Virus record (IMG/VR): IMGVR_UViG_3300028384_000673
Span: 47,560 to 111,559 of that record
DNA: 64,000 nucleotides
From: a virus
Direction: 5' to 3' (one strand)
Shown here: in pieces, positions 7,994-20,332 of the stretch
How positions within the stretch are numbered: position 1 is the stretch's first letter
Layout: the number at the start of each line of letters is the position of its first letter
Position numbers and translations under genes: made by a program
Notes under the pieces: generated by a model
Database searches by the model: none
Told to the model about the DNA's origin: nothing
The model's input: only the letters and a program-made list of their open reading frames with translations

Positions 7994-8587
7994 ATGTCCT
8001 TCCTCTCCGAGTTTCTGACTACTTCCTTCCAGAATGTTCGCTCTAAGAAGCGTACTGATCGACTGCACAAAGCACTGCTGAATGAGATCCTGAACGCTAA
8101 TCCTGACCTCGCAGAGTATACTTGGAAGTTTGAATACAAACTGAAAAAAGATGCTTTTGGTGGCACGTTTGATATTGACATCGCAGGATTTGATGCTGAT
8201 GGTGATATTCGTGTTGCTATTCTTGCCAAGGCAATCAACAGCAACGTGAACAAAAATATCAAGAACTACGCAAATACTACCATCGGAGAAGCAGCACGAC
8301 TGTATTATGCTCCTGATTGTAACAGCATCGAAAAGATTCTCTTCGTAAGTGTTCTCCCACGTCTTGCGCCACGATTCAACATTCTGGGAAGAGTTAAGGG
8401 TTTTGATGATGTTCTGAGTGCTAAGAGTCGCACAAAGATCGATGATGTTCTGCAACGTCAATATCATGGCGCTGTTGATACCATTGATCTGTTCTTTGAT
8501 ATTGATAACGTGAAGGAGCAAAAGAGCAAAAAAGACTATCAACAAATCGGTGTGAGCAATCTTACTCCCTGCCCTATGATCTGGTGA
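7994..8587 (+). CDS. Hypothetical protein, possibly restriction-endonuclease-like fold
   Basis: This 197-residue product starts at the ATG at 7994 (the open frame begins at a TTG at 7979, which lies too close to the promoter). It is preceded by its own promoter-like element. Residues about 44-90 (TWKFEYKL, then GTFDIDIAGFDADGDIRVAILAKA) loosely resemble the acidic strand and x-K strand of PD-(D/E)XK nucleases, but the usual Glu-x-Lys is not clear. This is a weak inference. No other domain is seen. As an early-type stand-alone gene it may act on host DNA or metabolism. Confidence 0.6.
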   Translation: MSFLSEFLTTSFQNVRSKKRTDRLHKALLNEILNANPDLAEYTWKFEYKLKKDAFGGTFDIDIAGFDADGDIRVAILAKAINSNVNKNIKNYANTTIGEAARLYYAPDCNSIEKILFVSVLPRLAPRFNILGRVKGFDDVLSAKSRTKIDDVLQRQYHGAVDTIDLFFDIDNVKEQKSKKDYQQIGVSNLTPCPMIW

Positions 8588-8597
8588 CAGTTGGCAA

Positions 8598-8625
8598 GGT
8601 GTCCACTATTCACGCACAGGGCACC
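8598..8625. other. Hairpin GGTGTCC-N14-GGGCACC
   Basis: A 7-bp stem with one G-U pair, 10 nt after the stop of the preceding gene. Its right arm overlaps promoter-like copy 3, which begins at 8614. It occupies the same place as the TGTGCCAC palindromes in the other units but is not the same sequence. Confidence 0.4.
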
Positions 8626-8650
8626 TAAAACCTGTATATTAAAAGAGTCA
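8614..8650 (+). promoter_or_regulatory. Repeated promoter-like element, copy 3
   Basis: GCACA, then CCTGTATATTAAAAGAG followed by TCAAAGGGA, 14 nt before the ATG at 8665. The -10 region differs from the other copies (TATATT), but the leader GAGTCAAAG is the same as in copies 1 and 4. Confidence 0.55.
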
Positions 8651-8664
8651 AAGGGATTCACACC

Positions 8665-8931
8665 ATGCAACTCACAAACTCCGCCACCATTGTTGACTTC
8701 TTCCCTGAGGCATTTGTTGCCGAGTCATGTAACATCAAGGGCATGAAAGTTGTCATCAAACGTTTCACCAAGCGTGTTACTTTCCGTGCTAATGGTGCAA
8801 AATCATACAGCACTATTGTTGCAACTGATGCCAAGAATGAGTGGGCACAGCGTATTGCTAAGGGTGCTGAGGTTACTGACTTCAACACCAACAAAATGCC
8901 TTCTTCTGAGTATATGCCACTGTACTGCTGA
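8665..8931 (+). CDS. Small basic hypothetical protein (88 aa)
   Basis: This 88-residue protein begins MQLTNSATIVDFFPEAF. Its central part is rich in Lys/Arg and beta-prone (MKVVIKRFTKRVTFRANG). It could bind nucleic acid, but no family is recognised. An AAAGGGA ribosome-binding site lies 8 nt upstream, and promoter-like copy 3 precedes it. It leads a unit of four genes ending at 9668. Confidence 0.65.
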   Translation: MQLTNSATIVDFFPEAFVAESCNIKGMKVVIKRFTKRVTFRANGAKSYSTIVATDAKNEWAQRIAKGAEVTDFNTNKMPSSEYMPLYC

Positions 8932-8955
8932 TTCGTTCTCTTAATTAACATCAAC

Positions 8956-9129
8956 ATGCTCAATCCTTACGTCGAAAACTTAGTTGCAATGGGTTACGAT
9001 CGTGCTGACTGTGAGACAGTTGCAGTCGCAGGAGTTGATAAGACTTTCCCACTGAACATCCATGGGAGAGTATATCAAACTCAGGAAGAGTACGATGAAG
9101 CACTTTACGATTTTATCAACGGACAATAA
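8956..9129 (+). CDS. Small acidic hypothetical protein (57 aa)
   Basis: A 57-codon frame starting MLNPYVENLVAMGYDRAD, 24 nt after the previous stop. The composition is acidic with regular helices (EEYDEALYDFI). No function is recognised. Support comes from position, absence of any better frame and protein-like composition. Confidence 0.5.
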   Translation: MLNPYVENLVAMGYDRADCETVAVAGVDKTFPLNIHGRVYQTQEEYDEALYDFINGQ

Positions 9130-9165
9130 ACACAACTATCGACATTTCACTCCTTGACTAACACC

Positions 9166-9354
9166 ATGACTGACAAAATCATTGACCGTGATGCACTCCA
9201 AGACAGCATGATTCAGCAAATGCTGGATGACATGGACATCAAAACTATGATGGCGATGTTGTATGATATGATGGATGAGAGTTATGATAAGTATTCGGTT
9301 GATGAATTGATTGCAGAAGTAGAAGAATACTACCCACATTTGTTAGAGGAATAA
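9166..9354 (+). CDS. Small acidic, methionine-rich protein (62 aa)
   Basis: From the ATG at 9166 the product is a 62-residue, strongly acidic helical protein rich in Met and Asp (for example MLDDMDIKTMMAMLYDMMDE). An upstream TTG at 9154 is possible. Its TAA shares a base with the next ATG (TAATG). Very acidic small phage proteins often bind or inhibit host enzymes, but that is only a general inference. Confidence 0.6.
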   Translation: MTDKIIDRDALQDSMIQQMLDDMDIKTMMAMLYDMMDESYDKYSVDELIAEVEEYYPHLLEE

Positions 9355-9668
9355 TGTCACTTATCAAACAGCATTTACATCAACAACAACGCAACATGGA
9401 TCAACTGATTATCACCAAGGCAGAACGTCGAATAGATGCTGTTGGATATATTGAGGACATTTGGGTAACAAATAGCGACCACGATAGTGATCCCGTGTTT
9501 ATTATTGACAGTTGCGGAACAGGACATCAATACTCCGTATTGTCACGCAAAGGTGATAACTATTGCATTACATATACGGCACAGACTGTATGTGAGTGCA
9601 AGGAATTTATCGAACAATGGATAAACAATGAGATCACACAAGAGATCTTAAATCTTTCTCCTGTGTGA
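9354..9668 (+). CDS. Hypothetical protein (104 aa)
   Basis: This 104-residue protein has a beta-rich centre (YIEDIWVTNSDHDSDPVFIID, with three Cys in the second half: CGTGH, CITYT, CECKEF). A short metal- or DNA-binding fold is conceivable but the Cys spacing fits no motif I know. It starts in a TAATG overlap with the upstream gene and is the last of its unit; promoter-like copy 4 follows. Confidence 0.6.
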   Translation: MSLIKQHLHQQQRNMDQLIITKAERRIDAVGYIEDIWVTNSDHDSDPVFIIDSCGTGHQYSVLSRKGDNYCITYTAQTVCECKEFIEQWINNEITQEILNLSPV

Positions 9669-9694
9669 CAGTTAAACTACCTGCACACGGTGAT

Positions 9695-9734
9695 GGCACA
9701 ACTCCCAAAATCGTGTATTCTATAAGAGTCAAAG
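9695..9734 (+). promoter_or_regulatory. Repeated promoter-like element, copy 4
   Basis: GGCACA, 15 nt, then TATTCTATAAG, followed by GAGTCAAAG. It matches copy 1 almost exactly from TCGTGTATTC to TCAAAG. The preceding TGGCACA equals one arm of the palindrome found at 7914 and 10524. The ATG at 9747 lies 12 nt downstream. Confidence 0.6.
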
Positions 9735-9746
9735 CAACGCACCACA

Positions 9747-9953
9747 ATGGTCTCACTTCTCCAAGATTCTAAGTTCATCGATGCCATTCAATCGATGCAA
9801 TCGTTCGCCTTTGAGATGAATCCTGACATTGATATGTGTTACGATTATGTGTGTGAAATGGCAGGCATTTCCACCTTCGTTGCTGATGGTCCTGCATGGG
9901 ATTTGTTCTATGATATGTGGGAACTTGTGAAGGAAGAAAATGGACTTAATTGA
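9747..9953 (+). CDS. Small hypothetical protein (68 aa)
   Basis: This acidic 68-residue protein begins MVSLLQDSKFIDAIQSM, with Trp, Met and Tyr clustered near the C-terminus (WDLFYDMWELVKEE). It has its own promoter-like element. No family is recognised. It leads a short unit with 9996, 10139 and 10311. Confidence 0.6.
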   Translation: MVSLLQDSKFIDAIQSMQSFAFEMNPDIDMCYDYVCEMAGISTFVADGPAWDLFYDMWELVKEENGLN

Positions 9954-9995
9954 TACTAAACACTACCCACTTTTCGCTGAATTAACTAAACTAAC

Positions 9996-10142
9996 ATGTC
10001 TGGAATCAAAGCAATCGATCAATTCAACAACATCTACGAAAGTGCAAACAACGGAGACACAATCATGCTCCGAGAGTATACCTACTGGGAAGCAGATCAA
10101 TACTTGATCGACGAAGATTCTCTCACTGAGGTAGAAGAATGA
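9996..10142 (+). CDS. Small acidic hypothetical protein (48 aa)
   Basis: A 48-codon frame starting MSGIKAIDQFNNIYES. Its TGA overlaps the next ATG (ATGA at 10139-10142). It is short, but its packing and acidic composition match neighbouring small genes. Function unknown. Confidence 0.45.
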   Translation: MSGIKAIDQFNNIYESANNGDTIMLREYTYWEADQYLIDEDSLTEVEE

Positions 10143-10303
10143 GAATCATACTTTTATTCTTCACTGTTATCGTTGGTAGCATTATTGGTGTTAATGGTAT
10201 CAACGCCATCTCAGATCTTCAAGATCAAAGGCAACAACGTTTCTGCAAACAAGTCTCATCGATATATTCATCTTACGATGAAATGTGTAAAGACTTTCGC
10301 TAA
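10139..10303 (+). CDS. Small membrane-anchored protein (54 aa)
   Basis: A 54-codon frame with an N-terminal hydrophobic segment of about 20 residues (MRIILLFFTVIVGSIIGVNG) followed by a polar tail with two Cys. It looks like a signal anchor or an uncleaved membrane segment, with the tail outside or in the periplasm. It begins in an ATGA overlap with the previous frame and ends 7 nt before the next gene. A longer frame in another phase (from 10173) overlaps it, but I consider that frame's first 46 codons non-coding. Confidence 0.5.
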   Translation: MRIILLFFTVIVGSIIGVNGINAISDLQDQRQQRFCKQVSSIYSSYDEMCKDFR

Positions 10304-10310
10304 TCATTCA

Positions 10311-10511
10311 ATGAAATTCCAAGTCACTTCACTAACACTCAATTTTGAAGATGATGATTTTGAGTGTCCTCCCACCATACAATCTGAGATCTATGAGGAC
10401 ATCATCGGATCATTCTGGGATGCTGCTGATAAAGAAGATTTAATTGAAGAGATTACCACAGTCGCAGGATTTACGGTGAAAGATATTGATTATCGCCACA
10501 TTCTCATTTAA
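10311..10511 (+). CDS. Small hypothetical protein (66 aa)
   Basis: The ATG at 10311 is preferred over the GTG start at 10173, because the upstream part would overlap the membrane-protein frame. The 66-residue product has MKFQVTSLTLNFEDDDFECPP and a helical acidic middle (AADKEDLIEEI), closing with KDIDYRH. I recall very similar proteins from other cyanomyoviruses, but could not check. Function unknown. Confidence 0.6.
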   Translation: MKFQVTSLTLNFEDDDFECPPTIQSEIYEDIIGSFWDAADKEDLIEEITTVAGFTVKDIDYRHILI

Positions 10512-10523
10512 GTAAAGAGAAAT

Positions 10524-10547
10524 TGTGCCAGTGAACTAAGTGGCACA
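10524..10547. promoter_or_regulatory. Palindrome copy 3 (TGTGCCA-N10-TGGCACA)
   Basis: The same 24-bp length and arms as the perfect copy at 7914-7937, with one mismatched inner pair. It lies 12 nt after the 10311 gene's stop and 13 nt before the next promoter-like element. Confidence 0.55.
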
Positions 10548-10560
10548 CAACTGGTAGACC

Positions 10561-10585
10561 TGCACCCCATATGGTCTATTATATG
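10561..10585 (+). promoter_or_regulatory. Promoter-like element, divergent copy 5
   Basis: TGCACC, then GGTCTATTATATG as a -10 region, ahead of the long leader (about 45 nt) of the gene at 10632. It is less similar to copies 1-4 but lies in the same position after the palindrome. The leader contains a GGGGGAGGAAAC purine block at 10592-10603 that resembles a very strong ribosome-binding site but is 28 nt from the ATG. Confidence 0.4.
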
Positions 10586-10631
10586 TTCATCGGGGGAGGA
10601 AACGACCCCAACCAACACTAACTCCACTCTC

Positions 10632-10979
10632 ATGCGTAAGATCGAATCCCAAATGTGTGCCGCTGTTCAGAAGAACATCGACTGGCAGTCTGGCAACACT
10701 AGTGTTCACTTTGATCCTGAAACTGGTGTCTCTGTTGTGCGTCTTCATGGCAACAAGATCGCTGAGGTTTCTGATAACGACATGACCATTTTTGATGGTG
10801 GTTGGCAGACTACCACCACAAAATCACGCCTTAATGCACTTTGCACTGAATTCTGCATTGCTGGTGAAGGTGTTTTCCAGAAAGACTTCACCTGGTTTGT
10901 GCGTAAGTTTGTCGGCAAGATCAACGGACAATCTAAGTTTGTCACCGAATCTTTCGACAACGGTTACATCTTCGCCTGA
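10632..10979 (+). CDS. Conserved-type cyanophage hypothetical protein (115 aa)
   Basis: This 115-residue protein begins MRKIESQMCAAVQKNIDW. It contains GVSVVRLHGNKIAEVSD and FDGGWQTTTTKSRLNAL near the middle, followed by an FTWFVRKF stretch. I recognise this pattern as a protein common in T4-like marine phages, of unknown function. The codon choice is rich in CGT, CTG and AAC, as expected for a well-expressed early gene. It follows a palindrome, a promoter-like element and a long leader. Confidence 0.7.
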   Translation: MRKIESQMCAAVQKNIDWQSGNTSVHFDPETGVSVVRLHGNKIAEVSDNDMTIFDGGWQTTTTKSRLNALCTEFCIAGEGVFQKDFTWFVRKFVGKINGQSKFVTESFDNGYIFA

Positions 10980-10988
10980 TTATTACCA

Positions 10989-11150
10989 ATGCTTAAAGTA
11001 AACATCCAAAAGGTGATTCGTGAAACTGTTGGTAACACCCAACTCACGAAAGAACAAAAACATCAAGTCTTCGAGTATGTGTGTCATGGTTTAATGAAAG
11101 AAGGACGAATCTCCTCTATTCAGTATGAACGCTGGACTAACGCATTTTAA
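10989..11150 (+). CDS. Small hypothetical protein (53 aa)
   Basis: A 53-codon frame, MLKVNIQKVIRETVGN at the start, mostly helical and basic, 9 nt after the previous stop. No family is recognised. Tight spacing supports it as the second gene of this unit. Confidence 0.5.
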   Translation: MLKVNIQKVIRETVGNTQLTKEQKHQVFEYVCHGLMKEGRISSIQYERWTNAF

Positions 11151-11164
11151 TCAAACAAACTCAA

Positions 11165-11299
11165 ATGAAATTCGTCCTCCTCGTTGTTATTGGCATCCTA
11201 ATCTACAATTCTAACGACTCACGATTCTTCATCTCCGATCAACTTAATAATGCAGCAGAAATCATCAGACCACAACCACAATTAAAACTCTCTTATTGA
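11165..11299 (+). CDS. Small membrane protein (44 aa)
   Basis: A 44-codon frame with an N-terminal hydrophobic stretch (MKFVLLVVIGILIYN) and a polar tail, probably an inner-membrane or thylakoid-membrane anchor. It starts 14 nt after the previous gene. It is the second small membrane protein in this cluster (the other is at 10139), and both follow short cytoplasmic-type genes. Confidence 0.5.
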   Translation: MKFVLLVVIGILIYNSNDSRFFISDQLNNAAEIIRPQPQLKLSY

Positions 11300-11367
11300 T
11301 GCCTGTAAGCGTCTACAACGCCCTTAAACATCGAAGACCTACATAGTACACCATCCAAACCATTATT

Positions 11368-11991
11368 ATGGAAGAAACTATCAATCTATCAGACAATCTC
11401 CCTCAACCAGATTTTGAAACTTACGGTCTTTTCATGACCCCAGTTACAAAACTCTCCCTGAAAGATCACGTTGATTCTATTCTTAAATGGATGAGAAATG
11501 AAGACTTCGTAGATATTGGCGAACGTAATGCATTATGTCATAATGTTCAACAAGTAGGCGAAACTAATAAGATCCTCGAAGATCTTCCCGCCCTTAAAGC
11601 ATCATTACTCGAAGCAGCAAGAAAACATAATGAATCAGGTTTGTGCTATGCCTCTAATTTCCAAATCTCAGATTGTTATATCGAACTAGCACATAAAGGC
11701 GCAATCTATGCTCCTCATGAACATTCAAACTGTCTATTCTCTGGCACCCTATTCGTAAACTACAATCCACAATCACACTCCTATCTTAAATTCAAACGTA
11801 ATGTAGTTTCTAACATGTATCCCGTTATGATGCTCCCTTATGAACAAATGACTGCATTCAATCTACAAGAAGCAACTATTCCTTACTCTAATGGTGATGT
11901 AGTCATCTATCCTTCAAACCTTACCCATGGTTATGAATCAAACCCATCAGATGAACGTATTACACTAACATTTAATGTTATTCCCGTGTAA
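11368..11991 (+). CDS. Putative 2OG-Fe(II) oxygenase (TIGR02466-like)
   Basis: This 207-residue protein has the family's C-terminal core: CYIELAHKGAIYAPHEH (metal ligands), SGTLFVNYNP, GDVVIYPSNLTHGY (metal His) and RITLTFNV (2-oxoglutarate Arg). Its N-terminal half is longer than in the 4869 and 7326 proteins, and its codons are noticeably richer in A/T-ending types (CTA, CTT, AAA), which may mean a separate origin. It stands alone, immediately before the origin-like non-coding region. Confidence 0.75.
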   Translation: MEETINLSDNLPQPDFETYGLFMTPVTKLSLKDHVDSILKWMRNEDFVDIGERNALCHNVQQVGETNKILEDLPALKASLLEAARKHNESGLCYASNFQISDCYIELAHKGAIYAPHEHSNCLFSGTLFVNYNPQSHSYLKFKRNVVSNMYPVMMLPYEQMTAFNLQEATIPYSNGDVVIYPSNLTHGYESNPSDERITLTFNVIPV

Positions 11992-12028
11992 TACTTAATC
12001 ACTCACAATCCTACACGCCAACACATCT

Positions 12029-12105
12029 TTTTCCACAATCATGCCTCTTAGTTATCCACAACTCTATAAGAGTTTTCCACAATTAAGAGGCATTTCTGTG
12101 GATAA
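12029..12105. other. DnaA-box cluster with nested inverted repeats (candidate origin)
   Basis: This non-coding DNA contains TTTTCCACA at 12029-12037, the consensus box TTATCCACA at 12052-12060, TTTTCCACA at about 12074-12082 and an inverted consensus box TGTGGATAA at 12097-12105. The second and third boxes lie inside an inverted repeat, GCCTCTTA (12043-12050) and TAAGAGGC (12084-12091), around a smaller one, ACTCT-ATA-AGAGT. Two more boxes lie at 12472-12480 (TTTTCCACA) and 12484-12492 (TATTCCACA) in the next gene. TTATCCACA is the classic bacterial DnaA box, and TTTTCCACA is the form I recall for Synechococcus. Origin function is an inference. Confidence 0.55.
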
Positions 12106-12159
12106 TTAAAATACCTCAATAAACATACCTTTGTGTAAGATAAGGGTGTTTGAAAGAGT

Positions 12160-12167
12160 GATAAATA
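12160..12167 (+). promoter_or_regulatory. Possible late promoter GATAAATA
   Basis: One base from the T4 late promoter TATAAATA, in non-coding DNA about 200 nt before the next gene. It may give a late transcript through the origin-like region; support is the motif alone. Confidence 0.3.
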
Positions 12168-12181
12168 CCCTGATTTGTAGT

Positions 12182-12221
12182 CTATTTGGGTCTATTTGTT
12201 GCTATTTGGGTCTATTTGTTG
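12182..12221. repeat. Perfect 20-bp tandem direct repeat
   Basis: The 20-bp unit CTATTTGGGTCTATTTGTTG occurs twice without a gap. Each unit itself contains two CTATTTG half-repeats, giving four evenly placed CTATTTG words. It lies between the DnaA boxes and the sigma70 promoter, a position that would suit origin iterons. Confidence 0.85.
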
Positions 12222-12294
12222 TTGCCTTGGAGTGTAACCTATCATCGCCTAGTTGTCAACACATAGGAGACACTCAGAAACTGTCACAAACCCC

Positions 12295-12323
12295 TTGACA
12301 TTACTTGCACTTTCATACATAAT
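12295..12323 (+). promoter_or_regulatory. Strong sigma70-type promoter
   Basis: TTGACA, a 17-nt spacer, then CATAAT, 41 nt before the ATG at 12364. This is the best match to a housekeeping bacterial promoter in the window, so host RNA polymerase could use it early in infection. Confidence 0.75.
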
Positions 12324-12363
12324 TACATTGTTCAACTCAGTCACTTTCAACTGACAATCTTCC

Positions 12364-12543
12364 ATGGGTCGCACATACAAACGCAACGATCTGCATAACA
12401 GCAGACGCCCTAAGTCCATCCGAGAAAAGAGACAGTTTTCTGATCGTAAATCATCAGACAAATATGATGATTTTTCCACAGATTATTCCACAAGTAAGTA
12501 CACACAAAAGAACCAACGATTTGACTCCCAAGATTATGAATGA
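12364..12543 (+). CDS. Small very basic protein (59 aa)
   Basis: A 59-codon frame beginning MGRTYKRNDLHNSRRPKSI. The first half is packed with Arg and Lys and the second half with Ser, Asp and Tyr. The charge suggests nucleic-acid or ribosome binding, but no family is assigned. It is the first gene behind the TTGACA-N17-CATAAT promoter. I recall comparable proteins in other cyanomyoviruses. Two DnaA-box-like words lie inside the gene. It overlaps the next gene by 8 nt. Confidence 0.65.
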   Translation: MGRTYKRNDLHNSRRPKSIREKRQFSDRKSSDKYDDFSTDYSTSKYTQKNQRFDSQDYE

Positions 12544-12667
12544 AGCGATGATGGATGACTGGATTGATGACATGCTCAACGATGAATCATTCGATGATAT
12601 TGTTGACTTCGATGCACTTATTGTTGAAAGTCTAGATGAACAACCAGAGGGAGATTATAGTGCATAA
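12536..12667 (+). CDS. Small very acidic protein (43 aa)
   Basis: From the ATG at 12536, which overlaps the previous stop (ATGAATGA), the product is 43 residues, almost entirely acidic and helical (MNEAMMDDWIDDMLNDE). The longer frame from 12464 runs through the basic gene and is not needed. A very basic protein followed by a very acidic partner, translationally coupled, is suggestive but unproven. Confidence 0.5.
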   Translation: MNEAMMDDWIDDMLNDESFDDIVDFDALIVESLDEQPEGDYSA

Positions 12668-12830
12668 ACTAATAGAACTTGAAACAACTCCCCCAGTAAG
12701 TGTTAAGATCTGGGAAGACCGTAAAGGACACTTTTGGCGCTATGCTTATGGCACTTGTCCTAAGAATGGTCCATTCCCTAACTATCAACAAGCACTCGCT
12801 GATTGTGTCTCCTATTCTACACAACTATGA
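12660..12830 (+). CDS. Small hypothetical protein (56 aa, GTG start)
   Basis: I prefer the GTG at 12660 because a strong AGAGGGAG ribosome-binding sequence lies about 7 nt upstream; an ATG at 12636 is the alternative. The product begins with HKLIELETTPP after the start and includes WEDRKGHFWRYAYG, with several aromatics. It overlaps the upstream gene by 8 nt and the downstream gene by 4 nt. No domain is known. Confidence 0.55.
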   Translation: MHKLIELETTPPVSVKIWEDRKGHFWRYAYGTCPKNGPFPNYQQALADCVSYSTQL

Positions 12831-13021
12831 ACATCCCAGTTAAGTATGAAAATCTATTAGATCTTTATGATGCTGGTAGTCTCCCACCTGATGAACAGAT
12901 AGAGTTAGCACAATTCCTAATTGACACTGATCTGTATCAACAACTCACACAATATACACAGTGGTGTGATTACCTAATCATGGAAGGTTTGTGCTATGAT
13001 GTAGTCATCGGGGACAGTTAA
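12827..13021 (+). CDS. Small conserved-type hypothetical protein (64 aa)
   Basis: The ATG at 12827 overlaps the previous stop (ATGA). The 64-residue product contains PPDEQIELAQFLIDTDLYQQ and WCDYLIMEGLCY. I recall this helical pattern from several cyanomyoviruses, without a function. Its TAA lies in the loop of a terminator hairpin, so it ends the operon starting at 12364. Confidence 0.6.
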   Translation: MNIPVKYENLLDLYDAGSLPPDEQIELAQFLIDTDLYQQLTQYTQWCDYLIMEGLCYDVVIGDS

Positions 13022-13029
13022 TCTGTCCC
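13011..13029 (+). terminator. Intrinsic terminator with stop codon in the loop
   Basis: GGGACAG-TTAAT-CTGTCCC, a perfect 7-bp stem, followed by TCTATTTG. The TAA of the 12827 gene (13019-13021) is in the 5-nt loop, so a ribosome reaching the stop would cover the hairpin. Confidence 0.65.
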
Positions 13030-13248
13030 TCTATTTGACAGTTATTTGTTGCCCTTGTTTGTTATTAGCGGTAGCGGGTATATTAAAAAGTACCTTCTCT
13101 CTAACCTACAACAGTATCCCAGGGCGGTCGATATATTATTCATGAATTCGATTCCCCCAGTATCAAAAAATTTCCCAGGTAGTAAGATCACTCTCAGGGT
13201 CGAACTACAATATATCTGGATATGTCTGAGAGAAACCATTAAGATAGT
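13030..13248. other. Intergenic stretch before the structural module
   Basis: About 220 nt with no convincing gene. It contains AT-rich words, a GGTAGCGGGT block near 13070 and a GAATTCGATTCCCCC block near 13144 that recall tRNA D- and T-arms, but I cannot fold a full cloverleaf. No consensus late promoter is visible, although the structural genes start here. Confidence 0.4.
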
Positions 13249-13929
13249 ATGTCAACATTAATCTGTAATTTGCCGTCTGAGACAGTCTGGGTACGTAAGG
13301 AGTATCTAACAGACTTTCAGAGTGGGTTTGGAGAGTTTGTGGAGGGCGTTTGGGTAACGGCGAAGTCGATGCCTGGACGTGCTTTTTATTTTGAGACATA
13401 CTTGCCAGAGTATGCAGCAATGTATGACAAGTTACCTATCAGTGCATTTGTTAGTAAACCAGAGACTCCAACACCTGATTTAGATCTAAAAAACTTACAG
13501 TTTTGGAACTGTATGGATTATGGTGTAACTGCTGTGTATAAGCAGTTTATTGGTTCAATGGATATCGAAGTATATACGAGAGACTTTGGACGCCTTACAG
13601 GGGCGTACGTGAGCACTCTGGACAATTATCACGACGACATTGATAGGATAGATTACAGCACTGCTGAGACACCAGCGGAGCATAAGAGTCATAACATCAT
13701 TAAACTTGACAATGGGCAGTATGCATTGTATCCTAATAATAGGATGAGAGTTTATGATAACTCTTTAACACCTACTGAACCAAAGATGCCATTCTTCAAA
13801 GTCAGTACGAATGTATATGATGTAGAGAGGGGACACATGACACGTTATGGGGACACTGATGACTACCACTATGGAATCCAGACCGACGATAGAGGAGATG
13901 AGGGGGATATGGTCTCAGTGGGTGGATAG
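13249..13929 (+). CDS. Hypothetical protein at the head of the structural module (226 aa)
   Basis: This 226-residue protein begins MSTLICNLPSETVWVRKEYL. The central region is rich in aromatics (FWNCMDYGVTAVYKQF, GQYALYPNNRMRVYD), with an acidic C-terminal tail (GDEGDMVSVGG). No family is recognised. Position before an NlpC/P60-like gene and the baseplate genes suggests a virion or baseplate-assembly role. It overlaps the next gene by up to 83 nt, depending on that gene's start. Confidence 0.65.
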   Translation: MSTLICNLPSETVWVRKEYLTDFQSGFGEFVEGVWVTAKSMPGRAFYFETYLPEYAAMYDKLPISAFVSKPETPTPDLDLKNLQFWNCMDYGVTAVYKQFIGSMDIEVYTRDFGRLTGAYVSTLDNYHDDIDRIDYSTAETPAEHKSHNIIKLDNGQYALYPNNRMRVYDNSLTPTEPKMPFFKVSTNVYDVERGHMTRYGDTDDYHYGIQTDDRGDEGDMVSVGG

Positions 13930-14392
13930 ACCGTGGTATCGTGAAAAGATGAAGGTGGGTGATTGTTATGGAATTTGTATGGAGTTCTATGATAAGGTTT
14001 TTGGTATAGAACTAAGAGACTATCCAAAGATTCATCGGAAGGCATTATTTGATCCAGAGTTTATTGAGGATCAAGCAGAGCGATTAGAGGATGGAGTGAT
14101 TCATGTCTATGCAGGTGATTGTAATAGTGATCCACCACCTTTATCGGACTTACAGTATGGTGACATGTTGGTCATGAGACTGCACTTAGAGCGTCTAGAA
14201 GGGGGTTATTCCACCCGTCGTGGTAGATTGTGTAACCACAGCGGTATATACCTAGGACATGGGTATATGTTGCATCATGCATGGTTAGATCCATCGGAGA
14301 TTGTGGACCTTACACAGTCTGTCTGGTTATACCGTTCAGTGGAACTTGTGTTACGATCACCACACACCGCAAATATTGTACCTCCTATATAA
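13847..14392 (+). CDS. NlpC/P60-like cysteine peptidase
   Basis: The 181-residue frame contains the NlpC/P60 signature: GDCYG with the probable catalytic Cys40, then YGDMLVMRL, and NHSGIYLG with the probable His131; His143/His144 follow. Family members cut peptide stems of peptidoglycan, and phage versions sit on tail tips. The start is uncertain: ATGs at 13847, 13859, 13871 and 13898 are all in frame and overlap the upstream gene. None has a well-spaced ribosome-binding site, although AGGAG abuts the 13898 ATG. The domain itself is complete with any of them. Confidence 0.7.
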   Translation: MGTLMTTTMESRPTIEEMRGIWSQWVDRPWYREKMKVGDCYGICMEFYDKVFGIELRDYPKIHRKALFDPEFIEDQAERLEDGVIHVYAGDCNSDPPPLSDLQYGDMLVMRLHLERLEGGYSTRRGRLCNHSGIYLGHGYMLHHAWLDPSEIVDLTQSVWLYRSVELVLRSPHTANIVPPI

Positions 14393-14415
14393 GGTGATGG
14401 TCGATACAGACGATT

Positions 14416-14580
14416 ATGAGTAAAAGATTTACGGTGCCTGTTGAGGAAGATGACTTCGGTGATCTTATTATTACGTTGCCTGCTGAGGTTGTGAATGATC
14501 TTGGGTGGTATGAGGGGATGGATTTGGAGTGGAGTGAGGAGATTGATGGTTCGGTTGTGTTGAAGAAGTGTGAGGGTTGA
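14416..14580 (+). CDS. AbrB/MazE-like small DNA-binding protein
   Basis: A 54-codon frame, MSKRFTVPVEEDDFGDLII at the start, then TLPAEVVNDLGWYEGMDLEW and SVVLKK. This order (a strand, LPxEVxxxLGWxxGDxLxW, a strand) is that of the SpoVT/AbrB swapped-hairpin fold seen in antitoxins and transition regulators. Such proteins bind DNA as dimers. No toxin partner lies next to it, and it sits between structural genes, so it may have been recruited for another purpose or regulate late genes. A weak hairpin (GGGTT/AACCC) follows it. Confidence 0.6.
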   Translation: MSKRFTVPVEEDDFGDLIITLPAEVVNDLGWYEGMDLEWSEEIDGSVVLKKCEG

Positions 14581-14612
14581 AAAAACCCCGAAAAAACCCG
14601 TCGTGAAACTTT

Positions 14613-14852
14613 ATGGAATTTGAAGAGGTTTACAAAGAACACATGGAGATGATTAGTAAGGCGATTGAAAACCTTGCTAGTCGTATCTCTGTTGTTGAAG
14701 GTGCATTAGGTAAGATGCCTCCACCAGGGGCAGAAATGATTAAATACAAACCAGAAGGGTACGAAGACTATTTGAATATTCGTGAACTGTTTGATGATTT
14801 GTATATGCGGATAAATATGATCGAAGACCGCATCAAAGTCCTAGAACCCTAA
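14613..14852 (+). CDS. Small coiled-coil protein (79 aa)
   Basis: This 79-residue acidic helical product has an N-terminal heptad pattern (MISKAIENLASRISVVEGAL), a Pro-rich hinge (GKMPPPGAEM) and a second helix (LYMRINMIEDRIKVLE). It may be a chaperone or trimerisation partner of the following large structural protein. The two genes overlap by one base (TAATG). Confidence 0.6.
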   Translation: MEFEEVYKEHMEMISKAIENLASRISVVEGALGKMPPPGAEMIKYKPEGYEDYLNIRELFDDLYMRINMIEDRIKVLEP

Positions 14853-17800
14853 TGGCAATTTATATTCGTGAAACGGGTCGTGGATTCCCTAATGTAGATT
14901 CTGGTGGCGAGTACCAGAAAGTATGGCAACGACCCGAATATGGTAAGTATAAGTCTCACAAACACCATAGTGGTCCTGGGACAAACTATACTATTACATT
15001 TAATGATGAGGGTCCTGGCACCTCTATTTTTGGTGAGGATAAGGTTTACTACATTGGTGACCAGGAAGTCCAGTGCGTTGGTGAATGTGATACGGAGCGT
15101 GTAGGTATCCATCGCTTCTATCGTCCTGGAATGGATCACAAATATTCTACATATGAAAATCTCAGGGATGATGATGTTCCTGGTGAAAAAGAAAAGAGTA
15201 AAGTAAAGAAAGGATATATCAAAGAACCTCGTAGTGGTGTTCCTGTTTTCTACTTGGCACGTTCGGAGAAAAGTGGTAGAACACAACCTTTATATGCTCA
15301 CTACGAAAATGACAGAAATGATAGTCTGTTATCTACTTCTGATTTTGTAGGTAATGGTTATGTACGAACAGGTCTTCTTGGATATGTGTATACATCCGCA
15401 GCAAATGCAGCAGCAGATGCTTCTATCAATGAAACTGCGGTTCCTTTGTATCATTATTTCAGAAGTACCAGTACAGAAAAGCGTGATAACTTCTATACAA
15501 TCGATCCTGCGGCAGAAGTAAACCTAAATGGTGGACCTATTGCACCAAAAGATCCTCATGACCGTGAATATGAGTACCAAGGTATCATAGGATATGTTTG
15601 GGCAGATGACTTTGGATCAGGAAATGTCAAGCAAATCCGTGAACAAGGTCTACTCGGTCCTGTTGGATATGGATCTCCTGTTGATTATGCAACAAGATCT
15701 GGTTGGTATGACTGGGATTTTGATGGTAGTGGCATTTACACTCATGAAAATTATGAGTATCAGTATGATGCTGATGCTGGACCATTAGAACCAACGCCTA
15801 TTGAGCGTTCTGGAAGAAATTATCGCTATTATGGAGCACCATCCGTACATAAGCATCCTGATTTTGGTTGGGGTAATCCAACTTTATGCCCTAATCTGAA
15901 TACAGATGCGTATTTTGAATGGTTATACGGTAAGAATGGTGCTGTTAAAGCAGCAGTTCCTCGCTTCTTAGAGTTTCATTCCGCTTTTGACTCTCAGTTT
16001 GTATATTATATCTACGATACTTCCTATCCATGGAAGGGTCCTATCTTCTCAATTCAGTATGCATTGAGTGATAGACACTGTTGTCCTAATCAATCCGTTA
16101 CGGTTGATGAAGATGAGACATGTGTATGTAATGAAAGTCTACTTAACAAGACTTATCACTCTCATTTTTACGAAATCCGTGAAGATAGTTGGAGAACCAC
16201 TCGAACTAGACTTGACATTACACAGGGTGGCGGCGCAGTAGGCGTTGAAGACTCATTCAGACCAGTAGATACTGACACCAAACGTATCTTTTTCCGCTAT
16301 TTGAGCAGAGAAGGTACTCCATATCAAGAAGGTGACACTATTAATGGGTGGGAAATTAGTGAAGTTGCCTATTTTGGTAACAAACTTCGTTGTGGTTACA
16401 TGGAATTGACTGGTGATGGTGATAAATTTAGCGCAGGACAGCAGTTCACTACTCCCGTAGACCCCGATAATGAAACTATTCTGCCTTCTAGAACGGCAGA
16501 AGTCCTTGCTGGGTACGGAATTAGAGACCGAGCAGGGTATTTTGGTGTCTATGAGTTCCCAAAACGCATCTCTTATTATAAAGTTGAGATTGATAGGACC
16601 GCATTAGTCAATAAACAGTCTCTTGACCTGGCAGAAATTGAGTGTACTGTTGATAAAAACGGCAGAATCTCTGATGTAAAGATTATCAATGGCGGAAAAG
16701 GGTATATCAATCCTAGAATTGTCATTGAAGAACCCGCACAGTTGACCGAAGGTGGTGCGAATGATCATGCCAGAGAGCAACTTAGACAACTGGGTGAGTG
16801 GGAAGGTGCGCCTTTGCGCTCCCCTACCAATAAATTGGACAATCCTGATGGTAGAAAGTACAACTTTACTCAGAAAAAGTTGCAAAGGAACATTGCTGGT
16901 CAGAATAAGAAGTTTGAAAAAGTATTTGACAAGCGTGAAAACGTAGTACCTTATTCAGAAGTGTCCGATATTCAGATTGATAAGGCGGATAGAGTTGAAG
17001 GTGAAGACGGTGGAGTTAAAAGATCCAGTAGCACTGGCAAAAAAGTGTATGTTGAACGTGAAAGAGTTCGCACAATGAGTGCTGAACACCGTCGTAAGGG
17101 TAAATTTAAGCAAGCAGTTGTTGAAATTGTATCTCTAAACAAGGAAGGTGGCATTGAAGAGATTCTAATTAAGAACCGAGGTCAAGGTTATGACCCAGAT
17201 CCCAATAGAAGACCCAAGGTTTGGGTTGTTCAAGTGGAAGAAGAGCAGTATAAGTTCCGTGGTCCTAACACGAAGAAGATGCGAAAGAAGTGGAAAAAAG
17301 TTGTTGACCCTAATGTCAAGACTGATATTACGGAAACTGCTATCGATGGTATCAAAGGTGAGACTAGAAGAAGGTCTGGTGCCAAAGAAGGTGAGATTTC
17401 TATCATGGATGATGGTGTCATCGGATCATTTAAGTCCATGATGCAAGGTTTCACTCAATCTTATCCCACTGGATACATTAGATTCTCGGGAACTGACGAA
17501 GTTGAGAAGACATCTCTTTGTTCTAATCTCCCTCCTGCCTGTATTGGGGTCGAAATTCCGTCTATTGTAAGTAAAGCACTGTTCAAACCTGAGACTGTTG
17601 AGGGTTTGATATCCGCATCTGGTGCATTTAAGAGTGTTATGGAGAATCAATATCCCGATATGGTCAGGGCTGCTGAGCAAACTGACCAAGCTGCTGACAA
17701 TTTGTCTAGTTTGTATGGTTGGAATGGCAATCAACAGTGCATTTCACTGCCCCAACCTAAGTTTTATAACGTAACTCGCCTTGCAGACCTCCCATGTCCC

Positions 17801-19036
17801 TTTACTGATGCCGAAGATGGTCGTGATTATGGGTGGGTTATCTACAAATATTGCGGATCTGACTCAGATAACGCACATTTTAACGTAAGTTTGTCTGTTG
17901 AGGGCGAAACCAAGGGTTCTCAGGGCGCAGATTTCATGGAATTCCTGCAAAAACTGCCTAGACCCAATTTGACACCGCCTAGACCCGTCATGAATGGTGG
18001 TGATAAGCGTAAAATGTGGAAATGTAGTCGTCAAAACATCAAAGGAAGGTGTTATTGGGATCCATCTGGCGGAAATGACGTGGTTTTTGTCCCTGTTGGT
18101 CTAGATGAAAACACATTTGACTGGTCTAGTTCCGATTTTGATGAAGCAGAGCAGTTATCACTGTGGATGGGTGATAATTTTGATCGTACAACCAAAGAAG
18201 TTGGATATACAATCCCTGGAACACCAGGAACACCAGGAAGCGGAGTTGAGGGAGACCCTGATTATGTACCTCCAACCCCTGGCACCCCTGATGCTGATTA
18301 TGATGTTCAAACATTCAATATTATTAAGACAACACCCCTAACGGGAGGTGTTCCTACCCATGAATGTTGGGATACTTATTTAAGACACTCAGGCAACTCG
18401 AATGGTGTGCTTGATGTGTATAGTGCATATTATGTACAAGGGTCTGGTAGTAACCAAACCCAAGGCAAAACTGCGGGAACAGGGTTCTGGGGTAACACAA
18501 GACTCTATGATGGAGAATCTTGTCCTTTTAGTCCTTGCACATACACTGTTTATAGCAATTATGGTTCTAGTGGATTTACAGGAAGTGCTATTGCACTAGA
18601 ATATGTCAATGATGTATCCATTGCTATTGATCCAAGATTAATATCACAACGTGGTATGAAAATGGGTCCATATACTGGTACGTTAAATATTAAGAACTGG
18701 GCAACTGGTGCCACTATTGCATTTGGACAGGCAGTTCAGAATATGGGCAACCCTTTTTATAATGAATGTAGTGGTGGTGCGTTCGGTAATCTCGTCGAAG
18801 CAGTACAACCAAATCCACCTATCACCAGAAGAAAAGTTCACACGAGCAGTTATGACCCAGGTGATATAGAACTTGTGAAAAAGCAACAAAGATTTAAGAA
18901 TCTTAAAGATCTTGAATTTGAAGGTTCTGACACAGGATGGGAAGAATACTACGATGATGACTTTGATTTTGATGCTGATGTATCAAACACCGCAATTTCG
19001 GACTTTTCTACTAACACTGATCGTCTCTTCGACTAA
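14852..19036 (+). CDS. Large virion structural protein with DUF5648-like repeats (1394 aa)
   Basis: This 1394-residue protein lies upstream of the PAAR, gp25 and gp6 genes. Three N-terminal units resemble DUF5648 repeats: about residues 86-125 (HRFYRPGMDHKYST), 131-180 (ending TGLLGYVY) and 198-250 (LYHYFRSTSTEKRDNFYT, ending GIIGYVW). Around residues 610-650 and 765-800 are single GGKGY/GQGY beta units like those in the giant protein. Around 1124-1152 is a short collagen-like Gly-x-Pro run (GTPGTPGSGV). DUF5648 units occur in secreted surface proteins, so cell-surface contact is plausible. It is probably a baseplate or tail-tip component; no enzyme motif is seen. Confidence 0.7.
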   Translation: MAIYIRETGRGFPNVDSGGEYQKVWQRPEYGKYKSHKHHSGPGTNYTITFNDEGPGTSIFGEDKVYYIGDQEVQCVGECDTERVGIHRFYRPGMDHKYSTYENLRDDDVPGEKEKSKVKKGYIKEPRSGVPVFYLARSEKSGRTQPLYAHYENDRNDSLLSTSDFVGNGYVRTGLLGYVYTSAANAAADASINETAVPLYHYFRSTSTEKRDNFYTIDPAAEVNLNGGPIAPKDPHDREYEYQGIIGYVWADDFGSGNVKQIREQGLLGPVGYGSPVDYATRSGWYDWDFDGSGIYTHENYEYQYDADAGPLEPTPIERSGRNYRYYGAPSVHKHPDFGWGNPTLCPNLNTDAYFEWLYGKNGAVKAAVPRFLEFHSAFDSQFVYYIYDTSYPWKGPIFSIQYALSDRHCCPNQSVTVDEDETCVCNESLLNKTYHSHFYEIREDSWRTTRTRLDITQGGGAVGVEDSFRPVDTDTKRIFFRYLSREGTPYQEGDTINGWEISEVAYFGNKLRCGYMELTGDGDKFSAGQQFTTPVDPDNETILPSRTAEVLAGYGIRDRAGYFGVYEFPKRISYYKVEIDRTALVNKQSLDLAEIECTVDKNGRISDVKIINGGKGYINPRIVIEEPAQLTEGGANDHAREQLRQLGEWEGAPLRSPTNKLDNPDGRKYNFTQKKLQRNIAGQNKKFEKVFDKRENVVPYSEVSDIQIDKADRVEGEDGGVKRSSSTGKKVYVERERVRTMSAEHRRKGKFKQAVVEIVSLNKEGGIEEILIKNRGQGYDPDPNRRPKVWVVQVEEEQYKFRGPNTKKMRKKWKKVVDPNVKTDITETAIDGIKGETRRRSGAKEGEISIMDDGVIGSFKSMMQGFTQSYPTGYIRFSGTDEVEKTSLCSNLPPACIGVEIPSIVSKALFKPETVEGLISASGAFKSVMENQYPDMVRAAEQTDQAADNLSSLYGWNGNQQCISLPQPKFYNVTRLADLPCPFTDAEDGRDYGWVIYKYCGSDSDNAHFNVSLSVEGETKGSQGADFMEFLQKLPRPNLTPPRPVMNGGDKRKMWKCSRQNIKGRCYWDPSGGNDVVFVPVGLDENTFDWSSSDFDEAEQLSLWMGDNFDRTTKEVGYTIPGTPGTPGSGVEGDPDYVPPTPGTPDADYDVQTFNIIKTTPLTGGVPTHECWDTYLRHSGNSNGVLDVYSAYYVQGSGSNQTQGKTAGTGFWGNTRLYDGESCPFSPCTYTVYSNYGSSGFTGSAIALEYVNDVSIAIDPRLISQRGMKMGPYTGTLNIKNWATGATIAFGQAVQNMGNPFYNECSGGAFGNLVEAVQPNPPITRRKVHTSSYDPGDIELVKKQQRFKNLKDLEFEGSDTGWEEYYDDDFDFDADVSNTAISDFSTNTDRLFD

Positions 19037-19569
19037 TGGCATACGGACTTTTACTACCAGTAGCACCAATCACGGGTCTTCCATGCTCAGGACATGGTAT
19101 TTGTATTCCTAGTACGGTTCACTCTGTACAAGCATGTGGAACTCCACCAGTTCCATATCCTATTATTATTAAAGAGTGGACCTGTTGGTGGCCACCTACG
19201 CCATTAGTACCTCTTGGGGCACTTAACCCTATGAAGGCAATGGTTCTGACGAATGGATTGCCAACGATGTCATTTGGCGATCAATTTACACCACACATTT
19301 CACCATGTACTAACATTGTGATCTATATGTGCCCCTGCGGTAAGTCACTGTGTCCTGTTCCTACGGCAATTCCTTGTAGTGCTCTTACAGCAGAGGATAT
19401 GGGTGGGGTAGGACACATGAGATTCTTATTTGCAACTAGTTTGACTGTCTATGTTACCAAGTTGCCTATTGGACGTGTTCTAGACCCTCTGGGGATAGGT
19501 ACAACGGCATTCTCGTACCCATGTAACTCGGTGGTTGCATATGGATCACCAAATGTGCTATCATCATAA
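19036..19569 (+). CDS. PAAR-like baseplate spike-tip protein
   Basis: This 177-residue protein is rich in Pro, Gly and Cys. The second half has the PAAR pattern of conserved short strands with Gly-Asp turns (VLTNGLPTMSFGDQFTPH) and a closing NSVVAYGSPNV. Eight or more Cys and several His could hold a metal ion, as PAAR tips do. In T4-like phages a PAAR protein (gp5.4 type) caps the central spike and meets the host envelope first. Position just before gp25 and gp6 agrees. It overlaps the upstream gene by one base. Confidence 0.7.
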   Translation: MAYGLLLPVAPITGLPCSGHGICIPSTVHSVQACGTPPVPYPIIIKEWTCWWPPTPLVPLGALNPMKAMVLTNGLPTMSFGDQFTPHISPCTNIVIYMCPCGKSLCPVPTAIPCSALTAEDMGGVGHMRFLFATSLTVYVTKLPIGRVLDPLGIGTTAFSYPCNSVVAYGSPNVLSS

Positions 19570-19587
19570 AGTCGTTTCACCGATATT

Positions 19588-19734
19588 ATGGCAACCCGAG
19601 CAAAAACTGGACTGAATAGCAGTCATATCGAATCTCGCCCCAAGAAAACTCGTCAGGGACGAGGACAGCATACAAAATATGCACCAACATCACGTAACAA
19701 AGCAAAGAAGCGTTATCGTGGACAAGGCAGTTAA
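19588..19734 (+). CDS. Small very basic protein (48 aa)
   Basis: A 48-codon frame beginning MATRAKTGLNSSHIESRPKK and ending KKRYRGQGS. About a third of residues are Arg or Lys. I recall near-identical small proteins next to gp25 in other cyanomyoviruses; function unknown. It lies 18 nt after the PAAR gene and overlaps the next gene if that gene uses its GTG start. Confidence 0.6.
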   Translation: MATRAKTGLNSSHIESRPKKTRQGRGQHTKYAPTSRNKAKKRYRGQGS

Positions 19735-19909
19735 AACTACACCCGAACTCGTCAAACAAGCGAACGAGGGACTCTTTCATTCCACTATGAATTTGCCAAA
19801 TGCAGCAAAGCATTGTGGTATGACAGAGCGTGAAATGAAAATGACGTTCAGGGAGTATCTCAAATACAATGTTCCTGTTGACGTGCTAAATAATCCAGAC
19901 AACGATTAA
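19718..19909 (+). CDS. Small helical protein (63 aa, probable GTG start)
   Basis: I place the start at the GTG at 19718, giving DKAVKTTPELVKQANEGLF after the initiator, which matches my memory of the cyanophage family. An ATG at 19679 would add residues overlapping the basic gene. The centre, NAAKHCGMTEREMKMTFREY, resembles a helix-turn-helix, so a small regulator or assembly factor is possible. gp25 starts 9 nt after its stop. Confidence 0.6.
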   Translation: MDKAVKTTPELVKQANEGLFHSTMNLPNAAKHCGMTEREMKMTFREYLKYNVPVDVLNNPDND

Positions 19910-19918
19910 ATCGTTTAC

Positions 19919-20332
19919 ATGTCATCGTACAGATTCCGTTCAGAAAAGTTCTTTTCAAGGGGATTCAAGGATTTGGCAGTGTCTTTTGACGCTAATCCGA
20001 ATACCGAGGATTTCGCTACGGTAAGTAACGAGAATGCTATTAAGCAGTCTGTTCGGAATCTTATGATGACTGCATTTGGTGAAAGACCTTTTCAGCAGGA
20101 TATTGGATCCAGAGTTCGAGGTCTATTGTTTGAACCATTTGATATCTTCTCTGCCGAAGATATTAGAGACGAAATTACTAATACCATTGAAAGACTTGAA
20201 CCTCGTGTTGAGGTACGAGCAGTTGATGTGAATATCTCTGAGGACGAATACTCCTTGGATGTTGCTATTGAATATGCAATCGTGGGACAACCTCAGACCC
20301 AAGTTGTTGAATTCCTCTTAGAGAGAACGTAA
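19919..20332 (+). CDS. 25: Baseplate wedge subunit gp25
   Basis: The 137-residue product is of normal gp25 length. It has the family core: NENAIKQSVRNLMMTAFGERPF, then QDIGSRVRGLLFEPFD, and a C-terminal strand pair (YSLDVAIEYAIV). In T4 gp25 is at the junction of the wedge and the sheath and primes sheath polymerisation; it is the equivalent of TssE in type VI secretion. The gene is directly followed (1 nt) by gp6, its wedge partner, as in T4-like phages. Confidence 0.9.
   Translation: MSSYRFRSEKFFSRGFKDLAVSFDANPNTEDFATVSNENAIKQSVRNLMMTAFGERPFQQDIGSRVRGLLFEPFDIFSAEDIRDEITNTIERLEPRVEVRAVDVNISEDEYSLDVAIEYAIVGQPQTQVVEFLLERT

Follow-up and report, generated by a model that had tools for sequence, protein, structure and literature searches.

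The region around 12 kb of the 64-kb stretch of viral DNA studied here (hereafter, the window) rather likely is an early replication origin of T4-type cyanophages, placed like oriE of phage T4 and activated by transcription, with many lineages using the DnaA protein of the host. As judged from the sequence, the element comprises a DnaA-box array, an AT-rich segment, a conserved block with a leftward sigma70-like promoter, and a forward promoter. The first-pass annotation had offered an origin, a DnaA sink, or a DnaA-regulated promoter as explanations of the boxes; an origin fits best among these, being partly supported by the fixed place of the element, its AT-rich DNA, a promoter-like site, and the position and direction of oriE. 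Added here to that annotation are the AT-rich segment, the leftward promoter, the conservation, and the identity of TTTTCCACA as the cyanobacterial form of the DnaA box.

The source virus record has 111,559 bp, and its best relatives are T4-type cyanophages; T4-type cyanophages make up the Kyanoviridae, and the hosts of the nearest relatives are cyanobacteria.

Composition of the element

The features of the region and the syntenic landmarks, in window coordinates, are as follows.

11368–11988, plus strand: 2OG-Fe(II) oxygenase gene (PF13759, phrog_81), the upstream neighbor
12029–12105, both strands: left DnaA-box array, order + + + −, start offsets 23, 21, and 24 bp; syntenic arrays in relatives
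12029–12037, plus strand: DnaA box TTTTCCACA, exact word, cyanobacterial form (motif from PMC4674748)
12052–12060, plus strand: DnaA box TTATCCACA, exact word
12073–12081, plus strand: DnaA box TTTTCCACA, exact word
12097–12105, minus strand: DnaA box TTATCCACA, exact word, abutting the AT-rich segment
12106–12145, no strand: AT-rich segment, 72.5% AT over 40 bp, candidate DNA unwinding element
12103–12294, plus strand: conserved intergenic element, iterated profile HMM, E = 5.5e-18 (the window is among the 13 seeds)
12231–12259, minus strand: leftward sigma70-like promoter TTGACA-17-TACACT, consensus match 10/12, facing the AT-rich segment and the boxes
12295–12323, plus strand: forward sigma70-like promoter TTGACA-17-CATAAT, consensus match 11/12
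12364–12540, plus strand: conserved small ORF, 59 aa, phrog_3226 (function unassigned)
12472–12480, plus strand: right DnaA box TTTTCCACA, exact word, within the small ORF (FST codons)
12484–12492, plus strand: right DnaA box TATTCCACA, one mismatch to TTTTCCACA, 12 bp from the box at 12472–12480
19919–20329, plus strand: gp25 baseplate wedge gene, syntenic landmark
20334–22541, plus strand: gp6 baseplate wedge gene, syntenic landmark

The exact word TTWTCCACA occurs six times in the window, with five of the six sites at 12029–12480 and the remaining one at 30769. Four sites are packed into the 77 bp of the left array, so that several 9-mer boxes of the host form lie in a short stretch, above chance expectation: the maximum in 400 Markov-1 simulations of 64 kb was one site per 85 bp, which bears out the earlier claim that four DnaA-box words in 77 nt are not a chance occurrence. 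A general excess of near-DnaA words in the window was considered and rejected, as TTATNCACA words with at most one mismatch number 68 in the whole window, compared with 87.7 ± 8.7 in shuffled sequences; hence, the cluster alone is unusual.

Most details of the first-pass annotation stand. The box positions 12029, 12052, and the inverted 12097 are correct, and the third box starts at 12073 instead of 12074; among the two further boxes at 12472–12492, the first is exact and the second is the one-mismatch word. The non-coding setting, claimed for all boxes, holds for the left array and fails for the right pair, which is inside the conserved small ORF. Nested inverted repeats are indeed present, with the arms 12029–12065 and 12069–12105 being 76% complementary. 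The nested hairpin 12032–12102, spanning the array, has a DNA fold of −15.7 kcal/mol (z = −6.0) and consists partly of arms that are absent from relatives. As a functional feature, the nested inverted repeat was rejected: it is strong in the window, and 20 aligned relatives show only the facing boxes. A tandem 20-nt direct repeat CTATTTGGGTCTATTTGTTG at 12182–12221, between the AT-rich segment and the block, also is not found in the aligned relatives. Positions 11000–13500 of the window match no Rfam family at E ≤ 1, and ARAGORN finds no tRNA genes at 8000–20000.

The box matching 12097–12105 is degenerate in some relatives (TGTGGATTAATTAAAT in contig L162, TGTGAATTAATTAAAT in L164), and an exact box pair occupies the place of the right pair in S-SZBM1 and contig L175. 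In ORFs related to phrog_3226, all 14 FST tripeptides, located in 12 out of 14 ORFs, are spelled TTTTCCACA, as if a constraint at the DNA level acted over the coding sequence, the ORFs being related and thus non-independent.

As in oriC-type origins, an AT-rich segment lies beside the boxes. The share of 40-mers at least as AT-rich is 0.014 in the window and 0.0002–0.0055 in six relatives, where we took the most AT-rich 40-mer lying no more than 60 bp from the boxes (for S-SM2, from the element start); the segment of the window is the weakest of the seven.

A simple promoter scan of 601 bp yields three sites of the listed kind against 1.9 expected, and therefore single sites carry little proof. 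Among 140 non-redundant elements, leftward promoter-like sites are present in 111 at a threshold of at least 9/12 (20 shuffles: mean 42.6, maximum 52) and in 64 at a threshold of at least 10/12 (mean 8.4, maximum 15), and plus-strand sites with at least 10/12 are present in 39 (mean 6.1, maximum 12); since the elements are homologous, these counts are not independent. By consensus match, a promoter-like site is aimed into the AT-rich segment, as in origins of the T4 type, and this promoter is weak in S-RSM4 (7/12), S-CAM4 (6/12), S-PM2 (9/12, only with other hexamers), and Syn9, where the place of the −35 hexamer, read by eye, is TTGTGT; in S-ShM2, the leftward −10 hexamer is AAGACT. Given the low scores in some members, the block may have another job.

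Conservation and genomic position

We searched for exact TTWTCCACA words in 15 named cyanophage records, with a cluster defined as two or more words within 40 bp. Clusters with two to five exact boxes per genome were found at the same genomic place in S-WAM1, S-SZBM1, S-SM2, Syn9, S-PM2, and S-ShM2, and no cluster was found in Bellamy, S-CAM4, ACG-2014j, S-8S56, P-SSM2, P-SSM4, S-SSM7, S-RSM4, and S-CRM01. Whole-genome scans of 12 records gave top 120-bp scores of 6–9 for the six clustered phages and 2–4 for the other six, the maximum in 40 simulations being 4. For P-SSM2, S-SSM7, and ACG-2014j, the exact-word search covered the whole record, and the HMM search described below covered stretches of 1 kb, 1 kb, and 6.2 kb, respectively.

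The first-pass annotation held that absence of the boxes from close relatives would speak against its proposal, and such an absence is not the general case. Among 18 viral contigs collected via the neighboring 2OG-Fe(II) oxygenase protein, 11 have exact boxes shortly past the oxygenase gene, and seven have no boxes there and keep the AT-rich sequence and the block. Hence, the boxes are not universal among relatives, as they would be for an oriC-type origin, and several lineages retain the element without them. For loci fetched by the neighboring protein and not by boxes, an exact box between 200 bp upstream of the element and its end is present in 15 out of 29 non-redundant elements, compared with 25 out of 4937 random windows; here and below, redundant elements and clusters were removed before counting, by k-mer similarity.

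A profile HMM covering the AT-rich segment and the block was built from 13 seed sequences in three iterations. The iterated HMM matches 10 out of 12 named cyanomyovirus genomes at E ≤ 1e-8, with one significant match in each, six of the ten genomes being themselves seeds and the HMM and cluster set partly coming from box-retrieved loci. The match in P-SSM4 is weak (E = 0.03), and in S-CRM01 the HMM does not find the element. Reversed-sequence decoys produced three matches at E ≤ 10 per HMM, the best having E-values of 1.3 (seed HMM) and 1.8 (iterated HMM). When the seed HMM alone is applied to genomes not used as seeds, the E-values are 2.6e-12 for S-RSM4, 5.8e-5 for Bellamy, 6.5e-5 for S-8S56, 0.044 for S-CAM4, and 0.73 for P-SSM4; as the iterated E-values of the weakest genomes lean on the iteration, position is the stronger argument there.

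Exact boxes inside the element or at most 200 bp upstream of it are present in seven out of ten genomes with significant matches; Bellamy, S-RSM4, S-CAM4, and P-SSM4 have none at the element, and S-8S56 has one. The order of parts varies; in S-SM2 and some contigs, the boxes separate the AT-rich part from the block.

At 11 out of 11 places, the element is situated 2.8–7.6 kb upstream of the gp25–gp6 genes and has one orientation (in S-SZBM1, the distance to gp25 was measured across the start of its circular record); its coordinates are approximately 52.6 kb in Syn9, 19.3 kb in S-PM2, 52.85 kb in S-ShM2, and, for the box-less phages, 140.2 kb in S-RSM4 and 73.3 kb in Bellamy. The flanking genes mostly differ between genera, and hence the element is not bound to one gene, which led us to reject the possibility that it is special to one gene neighborhood. 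Some neighbors are common, with a gene for a 2OG-Fe(II) oxygenase directly preceding the element in the window, S-WAM1, S-SZBM1, and S-PM2. One sequence, L001:8977-9609, was left out of the phrog_3704 protein alignment, as it is not homologous (22% identity). In S-PM2 (AJ630128.1:17414-19333, L323), annotated tRNA-Asn/Leu genes overlap a CDS and the DnaA boxes. We rejected tRNA genes as the cause of this cluster, since ARAGORN predicts none across the 7 kb examined there; the coordinates of the tRNA annotation look wrong.

A word that may be an alternative initiator site, TTGAGAAT, sometimes forming a palindrome or a repeat, is found in 10 out of 27 box-less elements (L378, L681, L388, L367, L373, L380, L365, L125 from Bellamy, L489 from S-RSM4, and L616) and in two out of 116 box-bearing ones, boxes being counted from −150 to +30 bp. 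This word was chosen by eye from the same data, the comparison being exploratory, and it is not rare genome-wide, with 22 occurrences in Bellamy and 18 in S-RSM4.

Box spacing and the host DnaA box

The word TTTTCCACA is described as a "species-specific" cyanobacterial DnaA box, and in EMSA and footprint experiments with domain IV of the DnaA protein from Cyanothece 51142, pairs of boxes were bound and a single box was not clearly bound (PMC4674748). Scans of viral contigs for direct or facing pairs of TTTTCCACA produced at least 309 box-retrieved loci, 106 of them cyanophage-like by blastn. Among the matches listed, the 106 loci contain 129 clusters with 62 architectures, "+23−" being the architecture of 22 clusters. 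In the same set of listed matches, 95 out of 129 clusters can be projected onto S-SM2, all of them within its 48–60 kb, and 51 onto S-PM2, 43 of these falling in 16–28 kb.

In 109 non-redundant clusters, again among the matches listed, 61 out of 78 direct offsets are 11–12 or 21–22 bp, and 64 out of 73 convergent offsets are 12–14 or 22–25 bp. The Rayleigh test gives p of about 1e-22, which overstates the significance, as the clusters are related, a part of the 12-bp class is codon-borne, and periods of 9.5–11.5 bp fit about equally (12.5 bp fits less well, still with a low p). The true motif yields at least 120 stretches with a box triple in viral contigs, and the reversed motif yields 30. 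In three cyanobacterial genomes, chosen for holding a TTTTCCACA triple, 14 out of 17 direct TTTTCCACA pairs have offsets of 11–12 or 20–22 bp. Thus, the phage box spacings are helically phased, as in these three cyanobacterial genomes, and, like those on host chromosomes, would permit cooperative binding.

Several observations concern other genomes. Two small photosynthetic genomes, judged from their size and psbA/psbD copies to be Prochlorococcus-like (G117) and marine-Synechococcus-like (G142), have exactly one direct TTTTCCACA pair each, with an offset of 11 bp, when pairs with a gap of 2–32 bp are counted. The stretches G142:C1:1657268-1657578 and G117:C1:1359826-1360244 contain this pair and a third box 290–400 bp off, with no 100-aa ORF there, and are candidate chromosomal DnaA sites not beside dnaN. 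A further box in G117 is 111 bp before the contig end; if the contig closes into a circle, this box would precede dnaN. Among the matches listed, 203 box-retrieved loci (L003–L122, L501–L689) show no close blastn match to the 12 cyanomyoviruses and the window; they also contain clusters at direct offsets of 11–12 and 21 bp, and hence other phages, too, may often carry DnaA-box arrays.

A probable origin and its alternatives

The origin reading can be compared with the organization of T4. The T4 record gives oriE the "(-) strand direction" and places it at 79355, and gene 6 is on the plus strand at 81081, so that oriE lies 1.7 kb before this gene. The cyanophage element has the same position and direction relative to gene 6, being located upstream of it, and in T4 the initiating RNA runs away from gene 6. 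According to PMC3016281, T4 oriF and oriG consist of a promoter beside an A+T-rich unwinding element, with a minimal length of about 100 bp, and oriE is apparently driven by an early promoter. Thus, the element resembles oriE in position, direction, and parts list, the likeness being one of layout. Unlike oriE, which lies inside gene 5 with repEA and repEB annotated there, the element of the cyanophages is found between genes or within short ORFs of doubtful status. It often has host DnaA boxes, whereas the 74–86 kb region of T4 is devoid of TTWTNCACA words.

With cyanobacterial oriC and DnaA-box arrays, the element has in common the 9-mer TTTTCCACA, offsets of 11–12 and 20–22 bp, and, in the phages, adjacent AT-rich DNA; it differs in that neither dnaN nor dnaA was recognized alongside and in being carried by phages with a T4-type replisome. 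The oriR origin of P1 is an example of a phage or plasmid origin that has DnaA boxes and uses host DnaA. Unlike origins of this type, the box-bearing elements have no phage Rep iterons recognized in an unsystematic look, and the replisome is the phages' own, the carrier phages having one of the T4 type, according to section 12 of a review (PMC2984593). Citing Weigele 2007, the same review mentions a predicted single theta origin in Syn9, a prediction that, like the present reading, places one origin in a cyanomyovirus; the review gives such a prediction for Syn9 only and treats it as an open question whether others have one (PMC2984593).

GC-skew profiles, proposed in the first-pass annotation as a check of an origin, did not bear it out. 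The cumulative GC skew has a global extremum at the element in none of six genomes, so that the switch seen at oriC-type origins is not observed. The skew rises locally at the element in five out of six genomes, with S-PM2 being the exception, and in S-WAM1, S-SZBM1, and S-ShM2 the steepest rise of the whole genome on a 2-kb scale is 1.0–1.2 kb downstream of the array, its place being elsewhere in Syn9, S-PM2, and S-SM2; in the window, the skew is −0.145 at 10–12 kb, +0.048 at 12–14 kb, and +0.189 at 14–16 kb. The rise near the array could be a trace of an origin or a result of gene content, and since there is only a local rise and no global extremum, we do not count GC skew as support. A skew switch is not necessarily expected of phages whose replication is recombination-dependent.

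The main rival, which we consider unlikely, is a DnaA-responsive regulatory region, where bound DnaA would repress, activate, or road-block the two diverging promoters and so affect early transcription, not replication. The diverging sigma70-like sites at 12231–12259 (minus strand) and 12295–12323 (plus strand), the enrichment of strong plus-strand sites along with the leftward ones, and the location of the boxes, past the 2OG gene and before the small ORF that follows, are consistent with it, whereas the left boxes of the window are outside the promoters (126–202 bp from the leftward −10 hexamer and at least 190 bp from the forward −35 hexamer) and the genes that might be regulated mostly differ between genera. 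Moreover, in seven annotated stretches to the left of the element (approximately 2–7 kb), all listed genes are on the strand opposite to that of the leftward promoter, and hence a leftward transcript would serve no listed gene there.

Still less probable is that the block is a site for an unnamed phage or host factor (e.g., for recombination, packaging, or chromosome handling), with the DnaA boxes a secondary add-on and the promoter resemblance incidental. The block does persist in elements that have lost the boxes and in those with a low-scoring leftward promoter (S-RSM4, S-CAM4), and box-less elements often carry TTGAGAAT; against this, the enrichment of leftward promoter matches and the AT-rich neighbor would be expected of a T4-type origin, and each genome has one significant copy, at the position of T4 oriE.

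In E. coli, datA is a DnaA titration site, a DnaA-box cluster outside oriC that limits host initiation, and the phage element differs from it in having a promoter, an AT-rich segment, and a fixed position. A DnaA sink, in which many phage copies of the array would take up free DnaA and stop host initiation, is weaker than the regulatory reading and improbable: two to five clustered exact boxes per genome, multiplied by the phage copy number, could bind much DnaA, and DnaA needs clustered boxes (PMC4674748), but most clusters are small ("+23−" alone making up the above 22 of the 129 listed), and the AT-rich neighbor, promoter, fixed position, and fixed orientation are not needed for a sink and thus are left unexplained.

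Under the origin reading, host RNA polymerase would start at the leftward promoter 12259–12231 and transcribe through the AT-rich segment, and host DnaA would bind the phased boxes at 12029–12105, perhaps aided by those at 12472–12492. The bound DnaA might then help to open the AT-rich segment or to keep it open, the RNA or the exposed strand would prime synthesis and load the T4-type replisome of the phage, and recombination-dependent replication would take over later. We infer DnaA binding, duplex opening, priming, replisome loading, and origin activity itself from the observed boxes, their phasing, conservation, and position, the AT-richness, and the promoter-like sequence. As several lineages keep the AT-rich and block core without boxes, DnaA would be an accessory in many, not all, of these phages and cannot be essential to the element family-wide.

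The best-supported conclusion is that many cyanophage lineages appear to have added, or retained, host DnaA boxes at an oriE-like origin. A wider reading, plausible and put forward tentatively, is that each T4-type cyanophage has one early origin, the positional counterpart of oriE, where phased host boxes stand in the stead of a phage initiator; the box-less lineages would have switched the initiator site, with TTGAGAAT as a candidate, and initiator specificity would have been exchanged on more than one occasion. Among the listed open-access papers on cyanophages or phages and DnaA or origins, titles and abstract starts do not mention DnaA boxes for any cyanomyovirus, and the word "DnaA" is absent from the text of one cyanomyovirus review; novelty in print is therefore not established.

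If the wider reading is true, the element would be a hybrid origin, part bacterial oriC and part promoter/unwinding origin of T4. With a conserved, precisely placed candidate present in isolates whose Synechococcus hosts can be cultured, the replication start of widespread marine T4-type cyanophages becomes directly testable. DnaA follows the cell cycle and light, and its use, if true, would link phage replication to a protein of the host, which would be unexpected for a T4-type phage.
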